NCBI GenBank assembly: GCA_027081145.1
Contig: JALWLB010000166.1
Location: forward strand, 1-32,323
Source of the DNA: Campylobacterales bacterium
GTDB lineage: Bacteria; Campylobacterota; Campylobacteria; Campylobacterales; QNZT01
Direction: 5' to 3'
DNA: 32,323 bases
Shown: in pieces, positions 4,899 through 14,156 of the stretch
Layout of the letters: the number at the start of each line of letters is the position of its first letter
Position numbering within the stretch: position 1 is the stretch's first letter
Translations under genes and position numbers: made by a program
The notes under the pieces: generated by a model
Database searches by the model: none
Seen by the model: only the letters and a program-made list of their open reading frames with translations
What the model was told of the DNA's origin: nothing

Positions 4899-6716
4899 CT
4901 ATTTCATACCTCGATGTCTAAGCTTATGATACACTTTTTTAAAAAAATTATAGAAGCGGTACAATACAGGTACTTTTGCAATAACATTCTTCATTCCTTC
5001 TCTTGAAACTGTCATTACATTAATCGACTGACTCAATTCTCGATAATACTCTACAACATCAGCAGGTGTCATTTCAACTTTCAAAATTCTTTGCTTTTCA
5101 ACTGCTTTTTTATAGTAAGAATCAAGTTCTTCCTGTCTTTTTTTCGTATGTTCTTCATAAAAAGGCACACGATAAAGTGATGTTGTTTTGTCTATATATT
5201 TAAAGTCATTTTTCAATGAATACCTTGTCCATAAATTCCAGTCTTCCAAATTATCCAGTGATTCATCAAAACCACCATATTTATCATATAACTCTTTTTT
5301 AAACAAAATAGATTGTATCGGTATATAATTGTTATACCACATCAAACATCGGGAAAACGGCTGCCTGTAAATTACATCATGACTCATCTCTTCATAAACC
5401 AAAGGATTTTTTGACAGTACTTTCGTTGCAACCTGAAAAGCAGAAGCATAACAAGCACTAATATTCTGGTCACTTTCTAATTCTGAAACCAACACTTCTA
5501 AATGATCTGCGAAAAAAAGATCATCATCATCTAAAAAAACGATATATTTCCCTGTTGCATTCTCCAAACCTACATTGCCACCTCTACATCTACCTGCTTT
5601 TGGCATTGCAACATATCGGATTCTATCGATATTGTCACTTTGTACTTCTTCTACATATTTTCTAGCATCCTCTGTTCCATCTTCAACAACAATCAACTCA
5701 ATATGGGGATAAGTTTGATTTTTGATACTTTCAATCGCCTCTTTCAGATAACCGAATCTTTGGCAGCACGTTCTTACGATAACCGATACAAGAGGAAAAT
5801 TTTCCAACTTTGTCTGTGGATATTTATAAAAAGCACCATCTCGTATAAACTCATAATCCCAAAGAAGAAATTTATAGTGTATATCCTTTCGTTTCTTTCT
5901 AGTAGATAAAAAATATGGAGCTTTTTTAATAATATCCAGCATATTTTTAAAAAGTTTCCAATGTTGCGATTTGAACTGTTTTGGAATGAAAAAAAGCCCA
6001 CAATAAAGCAAAATACCTTTTCCTATAGCCCTGATACCACCATAACGCATACGTAATAGTACATTAGAAGAAGTACTACCTAAAAATTGTAACTCTTTCA
6101 CTTGATTTGCTACTTCATATGTAAAGTGCCAACATACCGCTTTGGGATAGTATTTTAATTTATAACCATTATCTCGCAAACGGTAAGATATTTCCACATC
6201 TTCACCATACATAAAAATCTTCTCTTCATATCCACCGATTTTGTCCAAAGCTGATTTACGAAATAAAATACATGCACTACTGGACCAATTTGTTTCCATC
6301 GTAACAGGATTATAGTACTTTGGATGTTCATAAGGCTTTTGTCTAAATTCCCATGATGCAATTTCTGGTTGATCTTCAGATGCATACGAAACTATTTTTT
6401 CCAAGCTATCTTCTTCGAACTCAAGATCGACATTTGTGACCAATATGAATTCTGATTTTGCTTTTTTTATATTGTTATTATGTCCTGCTCCAAAACCGAG
6501 ATTCTTTGATTTGGAAAGGACAAAAGATGCATATTTACCTGATTTTTTTTCTCTAATTTCCTCAAGTTTTTGGTATGTATTATCTGCAGAACTGTTATCA
6601 GTAATATAAATATTAATCAATGATAATGGATACTTTTGTTTCTCTAAAGATTGAAAAAAATTTTCAATCCATTTTTGAGAGTTATAAGTAACGATTGAAA
6701 TATCTATTGGTTTCAT
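4899..6716 (-). CDS. Two-domain (tandem GT2) glycosyltransferase
   Basis: A 605-residue protein with two GT2 domains in tandem. Domain 1 (about 1-235) has DISIVTYNSQKWI, ITDNSSADNT, NLGFGAGHNN, VTNVDLEF and MYGEDVEISYRLRDNGYK, a WbbL/rhamnosyltransferase-like set. Domain 2 (about 308-565) has LVSVIVRTCCQR, VEDGTEDAR, the acidic motif FLDDDD, GGFDES and EDWNLWTRY. The linker (about 235-305) has aromatic and basic segments that may touch the membrane. Tandem GT2 proteins often add two different sugars or linkages of a repeat unit or act as polymerases. With the single GT2 nearby, this could be enough to build a simple rhamnose-containing polymer. The next gene starts 2 bases downstream, and the kinase gene ends 3 bases upstream. 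Specificity is not known. Confidence 0.85.
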   Translation of the reverse strand: MKPIDISIVTYNSQKWIENFFQSLEKQKYPLSLINIYITDNSSADNTYQKLEEIREKKSGKYASFVLSKSKNLGFGAGHNNNIKKAKSEFILVTNVDLEFEEDSLEKIVSYASEDQPEIASWEFRQKPYEHPKYYNPVTMETNWSSSACILFRKSALDKIGGYEEKIFMYGEDVEISYRLRDNGYKLKYYPKAVCWHFTYEVANQVKELQFLGSTSSNVLLRMRYGGIRAIGKGILLYCGLFFIPKQFKSQHWKLFKNMLDIIKKAPYFLSTRKKRKDIHYKFLLWDYEFIRDGAFYKYPQTKLENFPLVSVIVRTCCQRFGYLKEAIESIKNQTYPHIELIVVEDGTEDARKYVEEVQSDNIDRIRYVAMPKAGRCRGGNVGLENATGKYIVFLDDDDLFFADHLEVLVSELESDQNISACYASAFQVATKVLSKNPLVYEEMSHDVIYRQPFSRCLMWYNNYIPIQSILFKKELYDKYGGFDESLDNLEDWNLWTRYSLKNDFKYIDKTTSLYRVPFYEEHTKKRQEELDSYYKKAVEKQRILKVEMTPADVVEYYRELSQSINVMTVSREGMKNVIAKVPVLYRFYNFFKKVYHKLRHRGMK

Positions 6717-6719
6717 AAA

Positions 6720-7694
6720 TTAATACTTTTTTTTAAAATGAAATATGTTTTTTATTCTATTTTTTATTCGCATTGATTCCGCTAAATAAGATAACTTCCT
6801 ATTCTCTGCAATAAGATTTTGAATTTCACATTCCTTATGACACAACTGTTGATCCTGTTCAAGAAGTTGCTGCACTTTTATCTGAATATAATTTTCTTGT
6901 TCTTGAATTTTCTGTTCTTTTATCTGAATATAATCTTCTTGTTCTTGAATTTTCTGTTCTAGCTTTTTTATTTTTTCATTTATTGAAAATCTCTTTTTAT
7001 TATAGTTGTTTTGGTATTTAAAAAAAGATTTTTTATATACATATTGTTCAATAAAATAATATTCCATCTCATAATAGAGTTCACTTGAAATACTATATTT
7101 TTTTACTACCAAATCCTTATTTATTAAGGAACGATATAAGCAAAAAGATACTGGTAAACTACACCCAAAAACCCACTCATAATCAATAATATAGATTTGA
7201 TTATTTTTATAAATGATATTAGAAAAAATTAGATCAATATTTGATATTTCTTTAAAACAAATTTCACCATCCAATATAGAGTAATCAAAGTCTCCAAAAA
7301 TCTTTTTAAACTCTTGTGTAATATTTTTAGAATTAAATTTTGTTGTTTTAAAACTATCAATTAACAAAGCTCTATACTCATTAATAAACATTTTGATTTT
7401 TTCTTCACAATTACCAAATTTTTCTAAACGCTTAGCAAAGCTTTCGCCCTCAATAAACTCAAAAGTTAAACTATCTTCACTTTCATCTACAATCTTAGCT
7501 AACTTTATTTTTGGATTTGTGATGGAAGCAGTTAATTTATGATAATTATCTTTCATCTTTTTAAGATGTGGGATAGCTTCATTACAAAGAGCTTGTTTTT
7601 TTACATATTTTTGTCCGTTTTCTTCAAAAATAACAGTTTGTAATTGAAACTTTTTATCTCTTTCACTTCCGTTTTTTACATATAAAATATTCAT
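6720..7694 (-). CDS. Kinase-like protein with coiled coil and basic tail (WbdD kinase/ruler-like)
   Basis: A 324-residue protein in three parts. Residues 1-230 look like a small protein-kinase/APH-type fold: YVKKQA may hold the beta-3 lysine, NIDLIFSN (152-159) resembles the catalytic-loop metal ligand, and IYIIDYEWVF (168-177) resembles the DFG-equivalent. Residues 236-302 are a predicted coiled coil rich in Glu, Gln and Lys, with two near-identical 14-residue units (EQKIQEQEDYIQIK, and the same with N for D). The last 17 residues (MRIKNRIKNIFHFKKKY) are basic and amphipathic and could bind the membrane. This order matches the kinase, coiled coil and membrane helix of WbdD, the O9a chain-terminating enzyme, with its methyltransferase part encoded in the preceding gene. 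It overlaps that gene by ATGA. Kinase activity is inferred; the canonical HxD motif is not seen. Confidence 0.68.
   Translation of the reverse strand: MNILYVKNGSERDKKFQLQTVIFEENGQKYVKKQALCNEAIPHLKKMKDNYHKLTASITNPKIKLAKIVDESEDSLTFEFIEGESFAKRLEKFGNCEEKIKMFINEYRALLIDSFKTTKFNSKNITQEFKKIFGDFDYSILDGEICFKEISNIDLIFSNIIYKNNQIYIIDYEWVFGCSLPVSFCLYRSLINKDLVVKKYSISSELYYEMEYYFIEQYVYKKSFFKYQNNYNKKRFSINEKIKKLEQKIQEQEDYIQIKEQKIQEQENYIQIKVQQLLEQDQQLCHKECEIQNLIAENRKLSYLAESMRIKNRIKNIFHFKKKY
6876..6959 (-). repeat. 42-bp tandem duplication in the coiled-coil coding region
   Basis: Two adjacent 42-base units (6876-6917 and 6918-6959) differ at one base (a t/c change giving N versus D). Each encodes 14 residues, exactly two heptads, so duplication keeps both the reading frame and the coiled-coil register. 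The flanking coding sequence contains only diverged, similar Gln/Glu-rich stretches. Confidence 0.93.
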
Positions 7695-9577
7695 TTTATA
7701 CTACACTCAACAAAAAAAGAGTTTGCAAAAAAGGGAAATTGACCATTTTCTATGATACCTTTAAATGCCAATGGTTCACTAAAAAGCTCATATCGTTCAT
7801 TATCAAAATTCGGAGCGGACATTAACATCTCTTCACTACTCGGTAAATAGTCATCACTATACATTTCAAATGGCATTTTATAATCAGGATGAGGATAATA
7901 AAACTTTAAACTCTCAAACCCCGCACTCTTAAGTAAATGTTCCAGCTCAAGCTTTCCAAATGTTCTCACTGTATCGTTTCCTACATATCCTGTGATACTA
8001 TCAAACTCTTTACCGGTATGATCCTCCTTTGCCCCTGCAAAATATTTAAGTCCAAATCTATTTTCTATCGCTAAAAGCAGTTTTCCATCTTCGTTAAGAT
8101 ATGACTTTATATTTTTTAAAAACTCTTTATATGGTTCTTTTGTTTTGGTAAAACTACCTGCATACTCCAACACACCTATCAATGTCACATAATCAAACTT
8201 ATGATCAAGTTTTATATCATTCAAATTGCCAACAATTATTTCAAGATTGTCATACTCTCTGTTTCGCTCAAAATTAATTGTTGATCTACGCTTGGAAAGT
8301 TCTACAACTTTTACGGTTTGCACTCTCTTACATAAAAGTCCTGTAATTGCACCACACCCTCCACCAATTTCCAATAAAGTAGAGTCTTTTTTAAATGGAT
8401 ACCAATTTAAAATATTTTGACGGATGGGAGATAAATTTTTCAAAATTAACCATCTATTATCATGTAATAATATTTTTTCATAATCATCTTCAGTTCTACA
8501 AACTTCCAATAAATTTTCATACATAACAAATTTATTTACAACTGACTGATTATAATAGACAGACAAATCTTTTGGTTTTACTAGCTTAAATTGATACTCA
8601 TCCATTTGATCTATTAGTAAAAGTACTGGATCATAAGATAATAAAACATCATTCACATTGATATTATTAGCTAAAACTTTTAATCTTTGTTGATAGTCTT
8701 GAGAAAAAATAGGTTTATGAACTAATGCATGATAAAGCAAACTTACAAAATATAATCTATCATTTGGTCGATAAAATCCTTTAGAGTCTAATACACGCTC
8801 TTGAAGTAACAATCTCGCAAATTTTTCATCATAGTAATCATCCCCAACATAGCGAAAATCAAATAACACCTCTTCCCCATCAATCACAATTCGATAATGC
8901 ACTCTATATGGTTCTAAAAAAACTTTTTTAGCATTTGTTAAATAAATCACTTCATCAAGATTTTCAACTAAAAGATCTATATCTCCATGTTCAGCCATTG
9001 TATATTCATCAAACAAACATTCAAAATTTCGCATCACAATATATTTTGTAAATCTATTAAGATAATCAAAAAGCTTTTCTATACTTTCCCAACCATTTGC
9101 ACCAACAATATCTTGATTAAAGTTATTGAAATTTACTGCATCACTTGTAACATTTTTAAAAAAATCATAATGTTTACCAAAAAGTAAACTTAAATCATGT
9201 TCACTCTCTAAAATATTGTTTGTAGCATGTATCTTATGACCACCTCCAGTCCAATTTCTATATTTTAATTTTAAATCAAACATATTAATATTAACAAGTT
9301 CTAATCCTCTGGAGGTTACTCTAGTTTGATATTTCGGTGCTATATCTTCAACAATAATACAAATAAATTCATCAGTACCACAATGAATCTCTTTATCCGA
9401 TCCATTAGGTAAATTTTGTCCATAAAATCTACTCAAGTTTTCAGAAAATTTTTCTTTAGACCATTGTATAGTATATATTCGCTTAATATTCATATATAAT
9501 TTTATATCATCTAATATATCATGTAGTTTATCTGTTGCATTACTCCATATTATAAATAGATGGATTTCAGCTAACAT
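7691..9577 (-). CDS. Multidomain SAM methyltransferase with N-terminal nucleotidyltransferase-like region
   Basis: A 628-residue cytosolic protein. The C-terminal third (about 390-628) is a class I SAM methyltransferase: LLEIGGGCGAITG (401-413) is the SAM loop, VKVVELSKRR the acidic strand, and FDYVTLIGVLEY with LLLAIENRFG the later strands. Residues 175-290 contain RNFECLF and GDIDLLVEN (198-206) plus VLFDFRY, which resemble a nucleotidyltransferase-type acidic active site. Residues 70-140 have GGGHKIHATNN followed by ESEHDLSLLFG, loosely like the His-containing segment of nucleoside diphosphate kinases. Sitting between wzt and the kinase/coiled-coil gene, it probably methylates, and perhaps otherwise modifies, the non-reducing end of the glycan to stop chain growth, as WbdD does. 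It starts 1 base after the wzt stop. The methyltransferase call is firm; the N-terminal calls are tentative. Confidence 0.72.
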   Translation of the reverse strand: MLAEIHLFIIWSNATDKLHDILDDIKLYMNIKRIYTIQWSKEKFSENLSRFYGQNLPNGSDKEIHCGTDEFICIIVEDIAPKYQTRVTSRGLELVNINMFDLKLKYRNWTGGGHKIHATNNILESEHDLSLLFGKHYDFFKNVTSDAVNFNNFNQDIVGANGWESIEKLFDYLNRFTKYIVMRNFECLFDEYTMAEHGDIDLLVENLDEVIYLTNAKKVFLEPYRVHYRIVIDGEEVLFDFRYVGDDYYDEKFARLLLQERVLDSKGFYRPNDRLYFVSLLYHALVHKPIFSQDYQQRLKVLANNINVNDVLLSYDPVLLLIDQMDEYQFKLVKPKDLSVYYNQSVVNKFVMYENLLEVCRTEDDYEKILLHDNRWLILKNLSPIRQNILNWYPFKKDSTLLEIGGGCGAITGLLCKRVQTVKVVELSKRRSTINFERNREYDNLEIIVGNLNDIKLDHKFDYVTLIGVLEYAGSFTKTKEPYKEFLKNIKSYLNEDGKLLLAIENRFGLKYFAGAKEDHTGKEFDSITGYVGNDTVRTFGKLELEHLLKSAGFESLKFYYPHPDYKMPFEMYSDDYLPSSEEMLMSAPNFDNERYELFSEPLAFKGIIENGQFPFFANSFFVECSIK

Positions 9578-9578
9578 C

Positions 9579-10859
9579 TTAATCTACTTCCTCTTGTATT
9601 TCTATTTGGCTGTTAATATCAAAATATCCAACAATGTTTTTTACATTAATAATATCCAACACAAGAATATGATATAGTCTCTCATAGACTACAAACTTAT
9701 CATTTACAAAACCTGAACATGCAAAAGTTAATAAATATTTTCCACTAGCAATATTTAAATTTTGGGTAAATGAAACTGTTATTCGCTGATTTTTTTCAAA
9801 AACACCTGTACTAATTTTTTCTATAGCTGTATTTGTTCCTGTGATCTCTTTTCCTACTAAGTCTCTTATTGTAACTGTAAAAATAGGCTCATTAACCTGT
9901 TCTAAAAATTTAATTTTCATTTTGAAAATAGATTTTTCATTGGCAAACAGTTTTTGGGTGATTTTTCCATCTTTATTGATTACACTTATATCAACAATTT
10001 CTACTTTACCGTTTCCATAGACTTCATAAACTTTACTTAATTCCAACTCTTTACACCAATTTGCATTTGACAGCATTAATAATCTATCATCAAATTTATG
10101 ATTATAAGATTCAACTTTAATATCATCTAATAATACTTTTTTATACTGATCAATAGCAATTTTAGGATCACCTTCAAACTGTATAGAACCATTTACTATA
10201 AAAACAACTTTGGAGCTAAATTGCAAAATAGCACCAATATCATGGCTAACTAATAAAATTGTAGTCCCTGTGCCTTGTAAATCTTTAAATTTTTTCATAC
10301 ATTTTGCCTGAAAATTCATATCCCCCACACTCAAAGCCTCATCCACTATCAAAACATCAGGTTCTACATTTATTGCTACTGAAAAAGCAAGTCTTGCAAA
10401 CATTCCAGAGCTATACATCTTTACTGGTTGATGAATAAACTCTCCAATATCAGCAAATTCTAAAATAGCATCTATCTTATCATCCATCTCCTCTTTGGAA
10501 AATCCCATAATGGTACCATTTAGATAAATATTTTCAACTCCTGTCATCTCTGGATTAAAACCAGCACCAAGTTCAAGCAAAGAAGCTATCTTTCCATTTA
10601 CTTGAACCTCTCCACTTGTAGGTGTCAGCACTCCGGTTATGATCTTTAGTAGTGTAGATTTTCCTGCACCATTTTTGCCAATAATTCCTACAGTTTCACC
10701 TTTTTTGATCTCAAAACTCACATCTTTTAAAGCATAAAAATCGTGATGATACTTTTTTTTAAAAGGATTTAGTGCCTCTTTTAGTCTATCAACTGGTTTA
10801 TCATATAGATGATAGATTTTAGTGAGATTTTTGACACTTATAGCTATATTATCATCCAT
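9579..10859 (-). CDS. wzt: O-antigen ABC transporter ATPase with C-terminal cargo domain
   Basis: The ATP-binding subunit of a Wzm/Wzt polysaccharide exporter, powering flipping of undecaprenyl-linked glycan across the inner membrane. The nucleotide-binding domain (1-240) shows Walker A GKNGAGKST, the signature MYSSGMFARLAFS, Walker B VLIVDEAL and the H-loop LLVSHD. Residues about 255-425 form an extra beta-rich domain, as in Wzt proteins that bind the modified terminus of finished chains (E. coli O9a), not in short KpsT/TagH-like ATPases. That domain fits the neighbouring chain-terminator candidates. The track starts at a GTG (10862), but the ATG at 10859 gives a TGATG junction with wzm and seems better. 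Which end group it recognises cannot be read. Confidence 0.92.
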   Translation of the reverse strand: MDDNIAISVKNLTKIYHLYDKPVDRLKEALNPFKKKYHHDFYALKDVSFEIKKGETVGIIGKNGAGKSTLLKIITGVLTPTSGEVQVNGKIASLLELGAGFNPEMTGVENIYLNGTIMGFSKEEMDDKIDAILEFADIGEFIHQPVKMYSSGMFARLAFSVAINVEPDVLIVDEALSVGDMNFQAKCMKKFKDLQGTGTTILLVSHDIGAILQFSSKVVFIVNGSIQFEGDPKIAIDQYKKVLLDDIKVESYNHKFDDRLLMLSNANWCKELELSKVYEVYGNGKVEIVDISVINKDGKITQKLFANEKSIFKMKIKFLEQVNEPIFTVTIRDLVGKEITGTNTAIEKISTGVFEKNQRITVSFTQNLNIASGKYLLTFACSGFVNDKFVVYERLYHILVLDIINVKNIVGYFDINSQIEIQEEVD

Positions 10860-11650
10860 CACAATACATCCGCAAAGTGTGGTCTAAGTCTTTTAAATGT
10901 TACAGCACCCAAAACAAAAATTACTCCAGTAACACTCCAAAAATAAGCCATCAATGTAAAATCTTCCCAAAACCATTTTCCATATATCAAACTATTTCGA
11001 TACCCCTCTATTATATAAAATAGTGGATTTAGCTTTATTAAAAATTGATACTTTTGAGGAACCATGCTCAATGACCAAAAAATAGGAGTTAACCAAAATC
11101 CAAACTGAAGAATCATATTTACAATTTGTCCTATATCTTTAAAAAAAATTACGATAGAAGAACTTATCCAAGAAAGTCCAAGCAATAAAATAAAAATAGC
11201 ACCCAAATAGTAAAATATCTGTATCCAGTAGATATTTGGCCAATATCCATAAACCATAAACATAGTAAACATAAAAAATATAAAAAACAGATGAACAACA
11301 AGTGCAGAAAAAAGTTTAATAATTGGCAAAATACTCACACGAAAGAGCACTTTTTTAACTAAAAAGCTATTTTCAACTATACTATTTGTTGCATTAGCTA
11401 AAGCATCTGCAAAGAAAAACCAAGGTATTATTCCAGCTATTAGCCATAATATAAACGGAAAATTATCCACTGGTTGAGCTTTAAATCCAACTTGAAAAAC
11501 AAACCAAAATATTAATATAGTTATAGTTGGCTGTATAAAAGCCCAAAGGATTCCAAGATAAGAGCCAAGATATCGCTGTTTAAAATCATTTTTAGTAAGT
11601 GAATATAAAAGTGCTCTATTTTGAAAAATCGCCTTTAAAAAACCTAGCAA
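10859..11650 (-). CDS. wzm: O-antigen ABC transporter permease
   Basis: An ABC-2 type permease of 263 residues with six predicted membrane helices (first near residues 33-53, last near 230-250). NDFKQRYLGSYLGILWAFIQPT is the typical N-terminal coupling region of Wzm/TagG/RfbA-type exporters. It forms the channel for lipid-linked glycan with Wzt. The start codon is TTG at 11650 with an AAGGAAG ribosome site; it overlaps the end of rfbB by 7 bases and meets wzt at TGATG, so expression of both subunits is coupled. Confidence 0.92.
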   Translation of the reverse strand: MLGFLKAIFQNRALLYSLTKNDFKQRYLGSYLGILWAFIQPTITILIFWFVFQVGFKAQPVDNFPFILWLIAGIIPWFFFADALANATNSIVENSFLVKKVLFRVSILPIIKLFSALVVHLFFIFFMFTMFMVYGYWPNIYWIQIFYYLGAIFILLLGLSWISSSIVIFFKDIGQIVNMILQFGFWLTPIFWSLSMVPQKYQFLIKLNPLFYIIEGYRNSLIYGKWFWEDFTLMAYFWSVTGVIFVLGAVTFKRLRPHFADVL

Positions 11651-12795
11651 CCACTTCCTTTATTATATCTATTTAGATACCACTCAATAGTCTTTAAAAT
11701 CCCACTCTCAAAGTTCTCCTCAGCCTTCCAGCCAAGTTCATTTTCTATCTTTGTTGCATCTATCGCATATCTTCTATCATGTCCTGCACGATCTTGTACA
11801 AAAGTTATTAAACTTTTATAATTTTGAATGTTTAATTTTGAATTTTGAATGACTTTATTTGATGCAATAGGATAAACCTCATCCAATATTTCACATATTT
11901 TATTTACTATATATAGATTATCCCTCTCGTTTCTTCCACCTATATTATAGGTCTCTCCAGCTACTCCTACATGATAAGCCAAATCAATCCCTCTACAGTG
12001 ATCCTTGACATATAGCCAATCACGGATATTTTTACCATCACCATAAATTGGTATCGGATTTCCTTTTAGTGCATTTCTTATGATTGTAGGGATTAGTTTT
12101 TCATCATGCTGTTTTGGTCCATAGTTATTTGAACAGTTGGTTATGACAGTATTTAATCCAAAAGTGTGATGATAACTTCTTATTATCATGTCACTACTAG
12201 CTTTGGATGCACTATATGGAGAGTTTGGAGCATATGGAGTATCTTCACGAAACAATCCACTCTCACCAAGTGTTCCATAAACCTCATCAGTACTTATATG
12301 ATGAAATCTGCACTCTTCATAACCATCTTTATACTTAAAAGGTTTTTCCATCCAATAATTCTTAGCAACATCTACTAAAGTATAAGTTCCATTTACATTT
12401 GTCTCTATAAAAACACCTGGATTTTTTATAGAGTTATCTACATGAGATTCTGCTGCAAAGTGGATAACACCTCTTATATCATACTCATCAAATATCTTTT
12501 GCACAAGCTCTCTATCTCTTATATCACCTTGTATAAATGTATAATTTTTATGATTTTCAACCTCTTTTAAATTTTCCAAATCCCCAGCATAAGTTAAAAG
12601 ATCAAGGTTTATTACATGATATCTATCATACTTATCCAAAAAGTAAGGAACAAAATTACTTCCTATAAATCCTGCACAACCGGTTAGTAAGATAGTTTTG
12701 AGTTGTGAGTTTTGTCCTCGTTCCTGCGGAGTTGTCGCTTCGCTTGGACGAGTTTTGAGTTGTGAATTTTGAGTTTTGAGTTTATTGTTTTGCAT
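11644..12795 (-). CDS. rfbB: dTDP-glucose 4,6-dehydratase with repeat-derived extra segments
   Basis: An extended SDR enzyme that converts dTDP-glucose to dTDP-4-keto-6-deoxyglucose. The NAD-binding GCAGFIGSN, HISTDEVYG and the YSASK catalytic Tyr/Lys are present, as is FVQDRAGHDRRYAID. At 383 residues it is about 40 longer than usual. The excess is a 33-residue N-terminal leader of low complexity (KLKTQNSQLKT, PSEATTPQERGQNSQLKT) and about 13 residues (NKVIQNSKLNIQN) in the loop before LITFVQDR. Both are encoded by the heptamer repeat DNA found around the S23 gene. No ATG, GTG or TTG lies in frame between codon 1 and TILLTGCAG, so the leader is probably translated. The gene overlaps the S23 gene by 14 bases. 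The enzyme call is secure; effects of the additions are unknown. Confidence 0.95.
   Translation of the reverse strand: MQNNKLKTQNSQLKTRPSEATTPQERGQNSQLKTILLTGCAGFIGSNFVPYFLDKYDRYHVINLDLLTYAGDLENLKEVENHKNYTFIQGDIRDRELVQKIFDEYDIRGVIHFAAESHVDNSIKNPGVFIETNVNGTYTLVDVAKNYWMEKPFKYKDGYEECRFHHISTDEVYGTLGESGLFREDTPYAPNSPYSASKASSDMIIRSYHHTFGLNTVITNCSNNYGPKQHDEKLIPTIIRNALKGNPIPIYGDGKNIRDWLYVKDHCRGIDLAYHVGVAGETYNIGGRNERDNLYIVNKICEILDEVYPIASNKVIQNSKLNIQNYKSLITFVQDRAGHDRRYAIDATKIENELGWKAEENFESGILKTIEWYLNRYNKGSGC
11821..11852. repeat. Heptamer repeat patch inside rfbB
   Basis: This 32-base patch reads, on the plus strand, as consecutive heptamer-like units (GAATGTT, TAATTTT, GAATTTT, GAATGA). It is the same kind of sequence as in the arrays beside the S23 gene. 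It codes for the extra loop KVIQNSKLNIQN in RfbB, where family members have a short turn. Confidence 0.6.
12695..12786. repeat. Heptamer repeat block with GC-rich hairpin core at the rfbB start
   Basis: Two 20-base direct repeats (12695-12714 and 12752-12771, 19 of 20 identical, starting gttttgagttgtga) flank a GC-rich core at 12715-12751. Further GAGTTTT units run to 12786. The core carries imperfect inverted arms (ctcgttcc and ggacgag) around a 20-base loop and is clearly richer in GC than its surroundings. The block encodes the N-terminal extension of RfbB and the last codons of the S23 gene overlap its end. Confidence 0.75.
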
Positions 12796-13156
12796 TATTT
12801 AGCCTCTCTTGTGATGTTTTAACTATTGATGTTAATAGTTTTATAATTTCATCTATGTCACTCATTAAACTTTTTGTATGCTCTTTTGTTGCATCCAAAT
12901 ATCCTGTTGAGATCAACAATTTTATCCAATATTTAGTCTCTCTAGCCTCTTTATTTGCAATTGACATTTTAGATATAAAATCTTTTTTACTCTGTGCTGC
13001 AATAGACTCATTTATATTTGCCCCTATTGATGTTCCGCTTCTTAAAAGCTGTTTTGATAAAACATACTCTTTTTTTTCATCACGCAAATATTTATATACA
13101 TTTACAACTCTCACAGAAAAATTAAAACTCTTCTTTAATGTAATATTACTACTCAT
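12782..13156 (-). CDS. S23/four-helix-bundle protein (23S rRNA intervening-sequence family)
   Basis: A 124-residue protein of the S23 (PF05635-type) four-helix-bundle family. Recognisable features are FSVRVVNVYKYL, LSKQLLRSGTSIGANINES, QSKKDFISKMSIANKEARE and TKYWIKLLISTGYL. Relatives are found in 23S rRNA intervening sequences, as the Avd accessory protein of diversity-generating retroelements, and as lone genes often inside polysaccharide loci; the role of the lone forms is unknown to me. It splits the rfbACD and rfbB genes, and both flanks are heptamer repeats. The ATG at 13156 lies inside the last 28-bp repeat and lacks a Shine-Dalgarno site; it overlaps the stop of a repeat-encoded micro-ORF. 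The stop overlaps the rfbB start by 14 bases. No template/variable repeat or reverse transcriptase was seen. Confidence 0.88.
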   Translation of the reverse strand: MSSNITLKKSFNFSVRVVNVYKYLRDEKKEYVLSKQLLRSGTSIGANINESIAAQSKKDFISKMSIANKEARETKYWIKLLISTGYLDATKEHTKSLMSDIDEIIKLLTSIVKTSQERLNNAKQ

Positions 13157-13293
13157 AATTCAAAACTCATCACTCACAACTCATAATTCAAAACTCATCA
13201 CTCACAACTCATAATTCAAAACTCATCACTCACAACTCATAATTCAAAACTCATCACTCACAACTCATAATTCAAAATTCATCACTCACAACT
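13154..13293. repeat. Five tandem 28-bp repeats between rfbD and the S23 gene
   Basis: Five head-to-tail 28-base units (13154-13181, 13182-13209, 13210-13237, 13238-13265, 13266-13293) are identical except for one base in the last, and a partial sixth copy runs to about 13310 inside the end of rfbD. On the minus strand each unit is four degenerate heptamers: GAGTTGT, GAGTGAT, GAGTTTT, GAATTAT. Each unit also holds two micro-ORFs, MSCE and MSFEL (MNFEL in one unit), whose stops and starts overlap as TGATG and ATGA. There are no spacers, so it is not a CRISPR array. Confidence 0.95.
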
Positions 13294-14156
13294 CATAACC
13301 CATCACTCATAATTTTATCAATGCAATCAAAAAGAGAATCTTTCCAATAAGGCACTCTTATACCAAAATCTTTTTTAATTTTTGATTTATTTAGTACACT
13401 ATAGTATGGTCTTTTAGCTGGTGTTGGATACTCATAAGTCTCAATTGGATTGATCTTACATGATAATTTAGCCAATCGCATAATCTCTTTTGCAAAATCG
13501 TACCAACTAAGTACTCCTTCATTGGAGTAGTGATAGATTTTTGGAGTTGAGTTTTTAATTTTTGGAACTATTTCTAAAATAGTTTTTGCCAAATCTTTTG
13601 CATAAGTTGGAGATCCTATTTGATCATAAATAACACCTAACTCATCTTTTTCTTGCCCAAGTTTTAGCATTGTTTTTACAAAATTAGATCCATAACTACT
13701 ATAGAGCCATGAAGTACGAATGATGATACTATTTGCTGGAGCAATTTTTAGCATTGCCCTTTCTCCATCAAGTTTTGTTTTTCCATAAACTCCTTGTGGA
13801 TTTGTAATATCATCTTCTTTATATGGCTTATAATTTGTACCTTCATATACATAATCTGTTGAGATATGAATCAGTTTTATATTTCTCTCTTTTGAGATAA
13901 CACTAAGATTTTTTACCGCTACATGATTGATCTCATTTGCCAAAGATTGTTCAACCTCAGCTTTATCAACTGCTGTATATGCTGCACAATTTACAATTAC
14001 TTCAATTTTATTATCATGTAGAAAATCTTTTAAAGCTTTTTGATTTTGTATATCAACTATTTTCCTATTTGCAAAATAGAAATTTTTACTATCAACTAAG
14101 CTTTTGATTTCACTTCCAAGCTGACCATCTGCTCCAGTAACTAATATATTAGGCAT
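13293..14156 (-). CDS. rfbD: dTDP-4-dehydrorhamnose reductase
   Basis: An SDR-type reductase for the last step of dTDP-L-rhamnose synthesis (287 residues from the chosen start). Visible motifs are ILVTGADGQLGSE for NADPH binding, NCAAYTAVDKAE, STDYVYEG, the YGKTK catalytic Tyr/Lys, and RTSWLYSSYG. The track begins 12 codons earlier, inside rfbC. The ATG at 14156 gives the standard N-terminus [11 protein letters not shown] and an 8-base overlap with rfbC, so I prefer it. The C-terminal codons (IMSDGL) are built from the same repeat DNA that follows, so the original end of the protein was probably replaced. The stop codon overlaps the first ATG of the micro-ORF chain. Confidence 0.94.
   Translation of the reverse strand: MPNILVTGADGQLGSEIKSLVDSKNFYFANRKIVDIQNQKALKDFLHDNKIEVIVNCAAYTAVDKAEVEQSLANEINHVAVKNLSVISKERNIKLIHISTDYVYEGTNYKPYKEDDITNPQGVYGKTKLDGERAMLKIAPANSIIIRTSWLYSSYGSNFVKTMLKLGQEKDELGVIYDQIGSPTYAKDLAKTILEIVPKIKNSTPKIYHYSNEGVLSWYDFAKEIMRLAKLSCKINPIETYEYPTPAKRPYYSVLNKSKIKKDFGIRVPYWKDSLFDCIDKIMSDGL

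Follow-up and report, generated by a model that had tools for sequence, protein, structure and literature searches.

This study addressed whether a tandem duplication inside a coiled-coil gene has lengthened a putative molecular ruler for surface polysaccharide, and whether such growth recurs among relatives of the gene. The gene lies in the window, which is the whole 32,323-nucleotide stretch of DNA analysed here, and the source bacterium is related to Sulfurovum. A handful of gut bacteria are already known to use coiled-coil rulers. A literature search on the evolution of ruler length, including by tandem repeats, returned nothing relevant, most subscription journals lying outside its scope. 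We consider it probable that the kinase-coil protein encoded here is one half of a chain terminator, with the coil as its spacer, and that a recent 42-bp duplication lengthened this spacer by two heptads.

The 42-bp duplication and the protein that carries it

Tandem Repeats Finder detected a repeat of period 42 with 2.0 copies and 97% match at window 6875-6960. Both 42-base units fall exactly in codon phase and together encode residues 246-273 of the 324-residue ORF 7694..6720(-); their sole difference is GAT (Asp254) versus AAT (Asn268), read on the minus strand. The repeat search and the codon phase thus agree with the original prediction of two in-frame units that differ at one base. Self-similarity at a shift of 42 extended farther in weaker form (89% over 63 bases, score 42, against 15 for the best of 60 codon shuffles), and the decayed half-copy beyond the two units brings the array to approximately 2.5 copies. 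The features of the locus are listed in the table.

Table. Features of the terminator-like locus, in window coordinates
Feature	Position	Strand	Evidence or remark
Two-domain GT2 glycosyltransferase, likely polymerase component	4899..6716	-	Separate gene here
Kinase-fold/coiled-coil protein, 324 aa	6720..7694	-	AlphaFold2 mean pLDDT 89; Foldseek match to APH(3')-Ia
Conserved basic tail, RIKNRIKN.F.F	6720..6770	-	Common to relatives bearing a different (methyltransferase) head
Coiled coil, kinase end to tail, residues 232-308	6771..7001	-	77 residues, 11 heptads
Partial third copy, decayed	6853..6875	-	VQQLLEQ against EQKIQEQ
Copy 2 of the 42-bp unit	6876..6917	-	Residues 260-273 EQKIQEQENYIQIK; single-base difference, Asp to Asn
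Copy 1 of the 42-bp unit, in gene order	6918..6959	-	Residues 246-259 EQKIQEQEDYIQIK
APH-like kinase domain, residues 1-231	7002..7694	-	Homologue alignment, Foldseek; conserved SNIDLIFSN, IIDYEW
Methyltransferase (residues ~386-628) with 380-aa N-terminal extension, kinase partner	7691..9577	-	4-bp overlap with kinase ORF
Wzt, ABC ATPase with C-terminal Wzt_C domain	9579..10862	-	PF14524, E 9e-32
Wzm, ABC-2 permease	10859..11650	-	Domain search

The same synonymous codon was used in all 12 scored codons whose amino acid was kept (p ~0.0013 under local codon usage; the unit frame for this scoring was shifted by two codons), so the resemblance between the copies is not due to chance. Synonymous differences were also zero in the phase tabulated here. 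No second copy of the array was found in the 184-contig genome. In the neighbouring glycosyltransferase gene, dS between the window and its two nearest relatives (G011 and G021) was 0.78-0.92, or approximately half of the synonymous sites. For a duplication dating back to the split from these relatives, zero synonymous differences over approximately six synonymous sites would arise with a chance of ~0.02. The duplication therefore seems to postdate the divergence from the closest relatives sampled, and the recent origin originally proposed applies at the level of species, not at that of strains.

An AlphaFold2 model built from 14 homologues placed one unbroken 86-residue helix (residues 238-323) behind a kinase-like domain. 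This helix bears out the prediction that the duplication adds 14 residues, or two heptads, with the helical register kept. The Foldseek neighbours were aminoglycoside and macrolide phosphotransferases, the best being APH(3')-Ia (E 4e-6, probability 1.00, ~15% identity); the TM-scores were low, at 0.3-0.4, because the long helix was included. Searches of Pfam and NCBIfam returned no kinase family for residues 1-220 and weak coiled-coil matches only, and a PDB sequence search with the window protein returned no useful match and none to WbdD. The strongest hydrophobic period was 3.45-3.54 in 15 of 15 homologues. One core position of the window coil is occupied by polar residues, and the 3.5 periodicity of this coil was not significant on its own, being reached in 25 of 200 shuffles. 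Judged by the predicted helix and this hydrophobic period, an extended coiled coil stands behind the catalytic head, as it does in WbdD-type terminators.

Operon context and likeness to known terminators

The genes are ordered wzm-wzt-methyltransferase-kinase/coiled coil-glycosyltransferase. The operon contains the Wzm/Wzt transporter and the Wzt C-terminal domain that accompany WbdD-type terminators, and fold prediction and domain search place the APH-fold kinase and the methyltransferase domain in adjacent genes. The fusion of methyltransferase and kinase that is a trait of WbdD is absent: the two are separate ORFs here and in those relatives that have both genes. With genes assigned by motifs, the order wzm-wzt-methyltransferase-kinase/coiled coil was found in seven relatives, three of which have one extra ORF between wzt and the methyltransferase gene. 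Where this order is conserved, the methyltransferase and kinase genes lie a few bases apart. The N-terminal extension of the window methyltransferase contains EHGDIDLLV and was otherwise found only in G018, the methyltransferase of the other relatives being a stand-alone protein of ~300 aa. A structure of the 628-aa methyltransferase partner predicted from two sequences had a mean pLDDT of 36 and gave no fold for the N-terminal region.

The protein resembles E. coli WbdD (serotypes O9/O9a and O8) in having a putative terminator head, a predicted coiled coil and a candidate C-terminal docking region, accompanied by Wzm/Wzt and a separate, likely polymerase. It differs in that its kinase has no sequence match to WbdD, its methyltransferase and kinase are split, its tail reads RIKNRIK in place of SRSWRMT, and its 77-residue coil (~11 nm) is shorter than the ~20 nm coil of WbdD (PMC5082667). 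An S.SW..T motif replaces RIKNR after the coil in some relatives (L052, L053 and L036; genomes G160, G438 and G440), and the E. coli O8 and O9 WbdD proteins carry this motif too (SRSWRIT and SRSWRMT; L065 and L070).

The terminator-polymerase ORF6 of K. pneumoniae O7 (PMC11231755) also combines a methyltransferase, a kinase, a coiled coil and two GT2 modules, with wzm/wzt in the cluster, and the nearest solved structure to its kinase is the aminoglycoside-type kinase AmiN (PMC11231755). In ORF6, however, the methyltransferase, the kinase and an extra CBM domain share one protein with the glycosyltransferase, whereas the window family has a separate upstream methyltransferase gene and the window glycosyltransferase is a gene of its own. 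Relatives of the window protein that are fused to a glycosyltransferase match the architecture of ORF6 in the succession of an APH/AmiN-like kinase beside a methyltransferase, a coil and GT2-GT2. These fused relatives are also like WbbB of K. pneumoniae O12 (PMC11231755), in which terminator, coiled coil and polymerase modules form one chain; the terminator of WbbB is a glycosyltransferase, not a kinase.

The best reading of this architecture is a chain terminator with a coiled-coil ruler, similar to WbdD or to the O7 protein, and the protein is likely to gauge surface sugar chains and cap them. The ruler role assigned to it by analogy with WbdD is favoured by the place of the repeat in a predicted coiled coil, with a kinase-fold domain before it and a conserved tail after it, and by the surrounding polysaccharide operon of the ABC-transporter type; an identification with WbdD itself fails at the sequence level, given the APH-like kinase, the separate methyltransferase and the glycosyltransferase modules joined to the coil in most relatives.

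Coil length and DNA repeats among relatives

A scan of species genomes yielded 13 loci, all from Campylobacterota and mostly from Sulfurovum-like bacteria, and further relatives were added through whole-genome searches, with one genome sampled per species. In most relatives, the kinase, coil and tail are fused ahead of GT2 domains; in the window and in relatives sharing its glycosyltransferase, the gene stops after the tail. Two relatives (G002 and G014) have the coil, tail and glycosyltransferase of the window's family under a head of another kind, in which a second domain follows a methyltransferase, and G019 also has a methyltransferase-type head. The conserved tail thus occurs with both kinds of head and also in one chain with GT2 domains. 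That coil and tail recur under different heads suggests a module able to bear more than one terminator head, as would be expected of a spacer that ends in a docking site. In the fused proteins L012-L021, the distance from the tail to the first GT2 motif is 57, 71 or 85 in 7 of 11, in steps of 14, and this linker contains no evident coiled coil.

We measured coil length from the tyrosine at the kinase end to the arginine of the tail in 15 homologues, the window protein included. The lengths were 42, 42, 56, 59, 60, 63, 63, 67, 70, 70, 70, 77 (window), 81, 84 and 92 residues; ten are exact multiples of seven and five are not. A naive binomial for lengths modulo seven was dropped in favour of tree-based counts, the rows being related. 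The kinase tree carries at least 12 changes of coil length but only five changes of length class, so that at least 7 of 12 changes were whole heptads. When lengths were randomised or jittered on that tree, this count was matched in 0.035% to 0.23% of trials (p 3.5e-4 to 2.3e-3). As controls, kinase length changed by multiples of seven in 1 of 11 changes, and the non-coil linker between tail and glycosyltransferase did so in 3 of 7 (p 0.065). This linker also clusters modulo seven, and part of the clustering may therefore lie outside coil specificity.

Closely related pairs illustrate both kinds of change: the sisters L019 and L021 are one heptad apart, and a four-residue stutter separates L018 from L033. 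Coils of the methyltransferase type are 37, 44 and 51 residues long, with gaps of exactly seven-residue blocks (distances counted by hand). The coil of G011, whose glycosyltransferase is 90% identical to that of the window, has 56 residues, three heptads below the window; its contig begins just upstream of the coil, at a possibly chimeric join. These lengths support the view that the coils of relatives differ mainly by whole heptads.

Tandem repeats in the coil DNA clearly exceeded codon shuffles in four coils. The periods were 42 bp in the window, 42 bp in G011 (83%), 21 bp in G019 (96%, about four copies) and 105 bp in G160 (L036), where each unit encodes 35 residues, or five heptads, in ~2.7 copies with 98% identity over 174 bases. 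Each of these periods is a multiple of 21 bp, which has a chance of ~4e-4 among in-frame periods. The repeat units of the four coils are unlike in sequence and are probably the products of independent events, so heptad-step growth of the coil appears to recur in the family. That spacer length in the family has changed repeatedly in heptad steps, at least sometimes through tandem DNA duplication, is a likely part of the explanation as a whole.

Proposed mechanism and alternative explanations

The repeat, its frame, the predicted fold, the operon and the heptad-biased length changes rest on the data presented here; the substrate, the capping chemistry, the oligomeric state, the chain-length effect and the mechanism of each length change are what we infer from them. 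ORF 7694..6720 would be the kinase half of a two-protein terminator, made of a separate methyltransferase and kinase, for a polysaccharide exported by an ABC transporter. Its coil would act as a rigid spacer that sets the distance from the capping kinase to the conserved tail, the presumed site of polymerase or membrane. A chain long enough to pass the spacer would be phosphorylated and then methylated, and these modifications would end its growth and tag it for Wzt. The 42-bp duplication would represent a recent in-frame gain of two heptads (14 residues, ~2.1 nm) with preserved helical register. With the kinase ~2.1 nm farther from the polymerase, a higher modal chain length is expected by analogy.

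A wider proposal, which we regard as tentative and somewhat less probable than its opposite, is that ruler length is quantised and evolvable, with heptad-multiple tandem duplications repeatedly resetting the spacer under a fixed head and docking tail. If this is true, surface-glycan length would change stepwise, with ~1 nm of spacer per heptad. The family offers a natural length series, from 42 to 92 residues in mostly heptad steps with head and tail constant, and one member, the window protein, appears to have been caught shortly after a two-heptad duplication. Together, these make it directly testable whether a change of ruler length by itself alters chain length over evolution.

The duplication may also be harmless and without effect on chain length, heptad-sized indels simply being those that a drifting coiled coil tolerates best. 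Coiled coils in general retain register, four-residue stutters occur as well (L018 versus L033) and all lengths from 42 to 92 are tolerated; we judge this neutral explanation unlikely. Experiments on WbdD argue against it: insertions and truncations shift the modal chain length, which coil length sets, according to the account of Hagelueken 2015 given in PMC5082667. The constancy of WbdD within E. coli points the same way. The span of each match was compared with its query, O9 wbdD of strain HS or O8 wbdD of IAI1. The O9 gene matched 263 genomes (210 over at least 80% of the query), and 48 of 48 full-length places among the matches listed spanned the query length exactly, down to 88% identity; the O8 gene matched 303 genomes (302 over at least 80%), and 59 of 59 full-length places among the matches listed equalled the query length. 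No change of WbdD length was therefore seen in 107 E. coli strains among the matches listed. Within this species and these matches the ruler looks fixed, its length not free to drift, which also argues against assuming strain-level variation in the window protein, as was originally suggested. Rather more doubtful is a different role for the protein, be it the capping or modification of some other exported glycan (capsule or glycolipid) or the phosphorylation of another kind of substrate, with the coil merely tethering the protein to the polymerase. The additional 380-aa region of the methyltransferase partner counts in favour of such a role, but the operon logic equals that of known terminators and Wzt has a Wzt_C domain.

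Variation in copy number of the 42-bp unit within the population, with a switch of chain length, appears improbable. Near-identical tandem copies could recombine, and in 4 of 8 loci of the family (G003, G011, G018 and G021) the contig stops in the coiled coil or close to it. With a likelihood of 10-12% for a random end to fall there, this has a chance of ~0.005-0.01. Such breaks faintly suggest that repeats or population variation disrupted assembly. However, there are only two copies, the assembly runs straight through them with no other version of the array in the genome, and E. coli rulers look fixed among the matches listed; the contig ends may also stem from thin coverage or from short words in common, such as the ~21 bases that the end of G018 shares with the G011 join. 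An assembly artefact is highly improbable, even in a 184-contig draft whose relatives' contigs break at the coil: ordinary short reads can resolve 84 bp with a distinguishing base, the frame is intact, and independent relatives show the same kind of repeat, such as the 105-bp units (98% identity) of the single-contig genome G160. The four contig ends noted above belong to L002, L005, L006 and L060, and those of G003 and G021 lie inside the coil.

Repeats were also observed elsewhere in the window. A 28-bp tandem repeat, ACTCATAATTCAAAACTCATCACTCACA, with 5.3 copies at 99%, lies at window 13151-13298 between sugar-nucleotide genes and has weaker relatives on two other contigs. An RmlB-like ORF (window 11644-12795) begins with an unusual run of NSQLKT repeats, which may be the translation of a short repeat of the same kind, and its true start is probably later.
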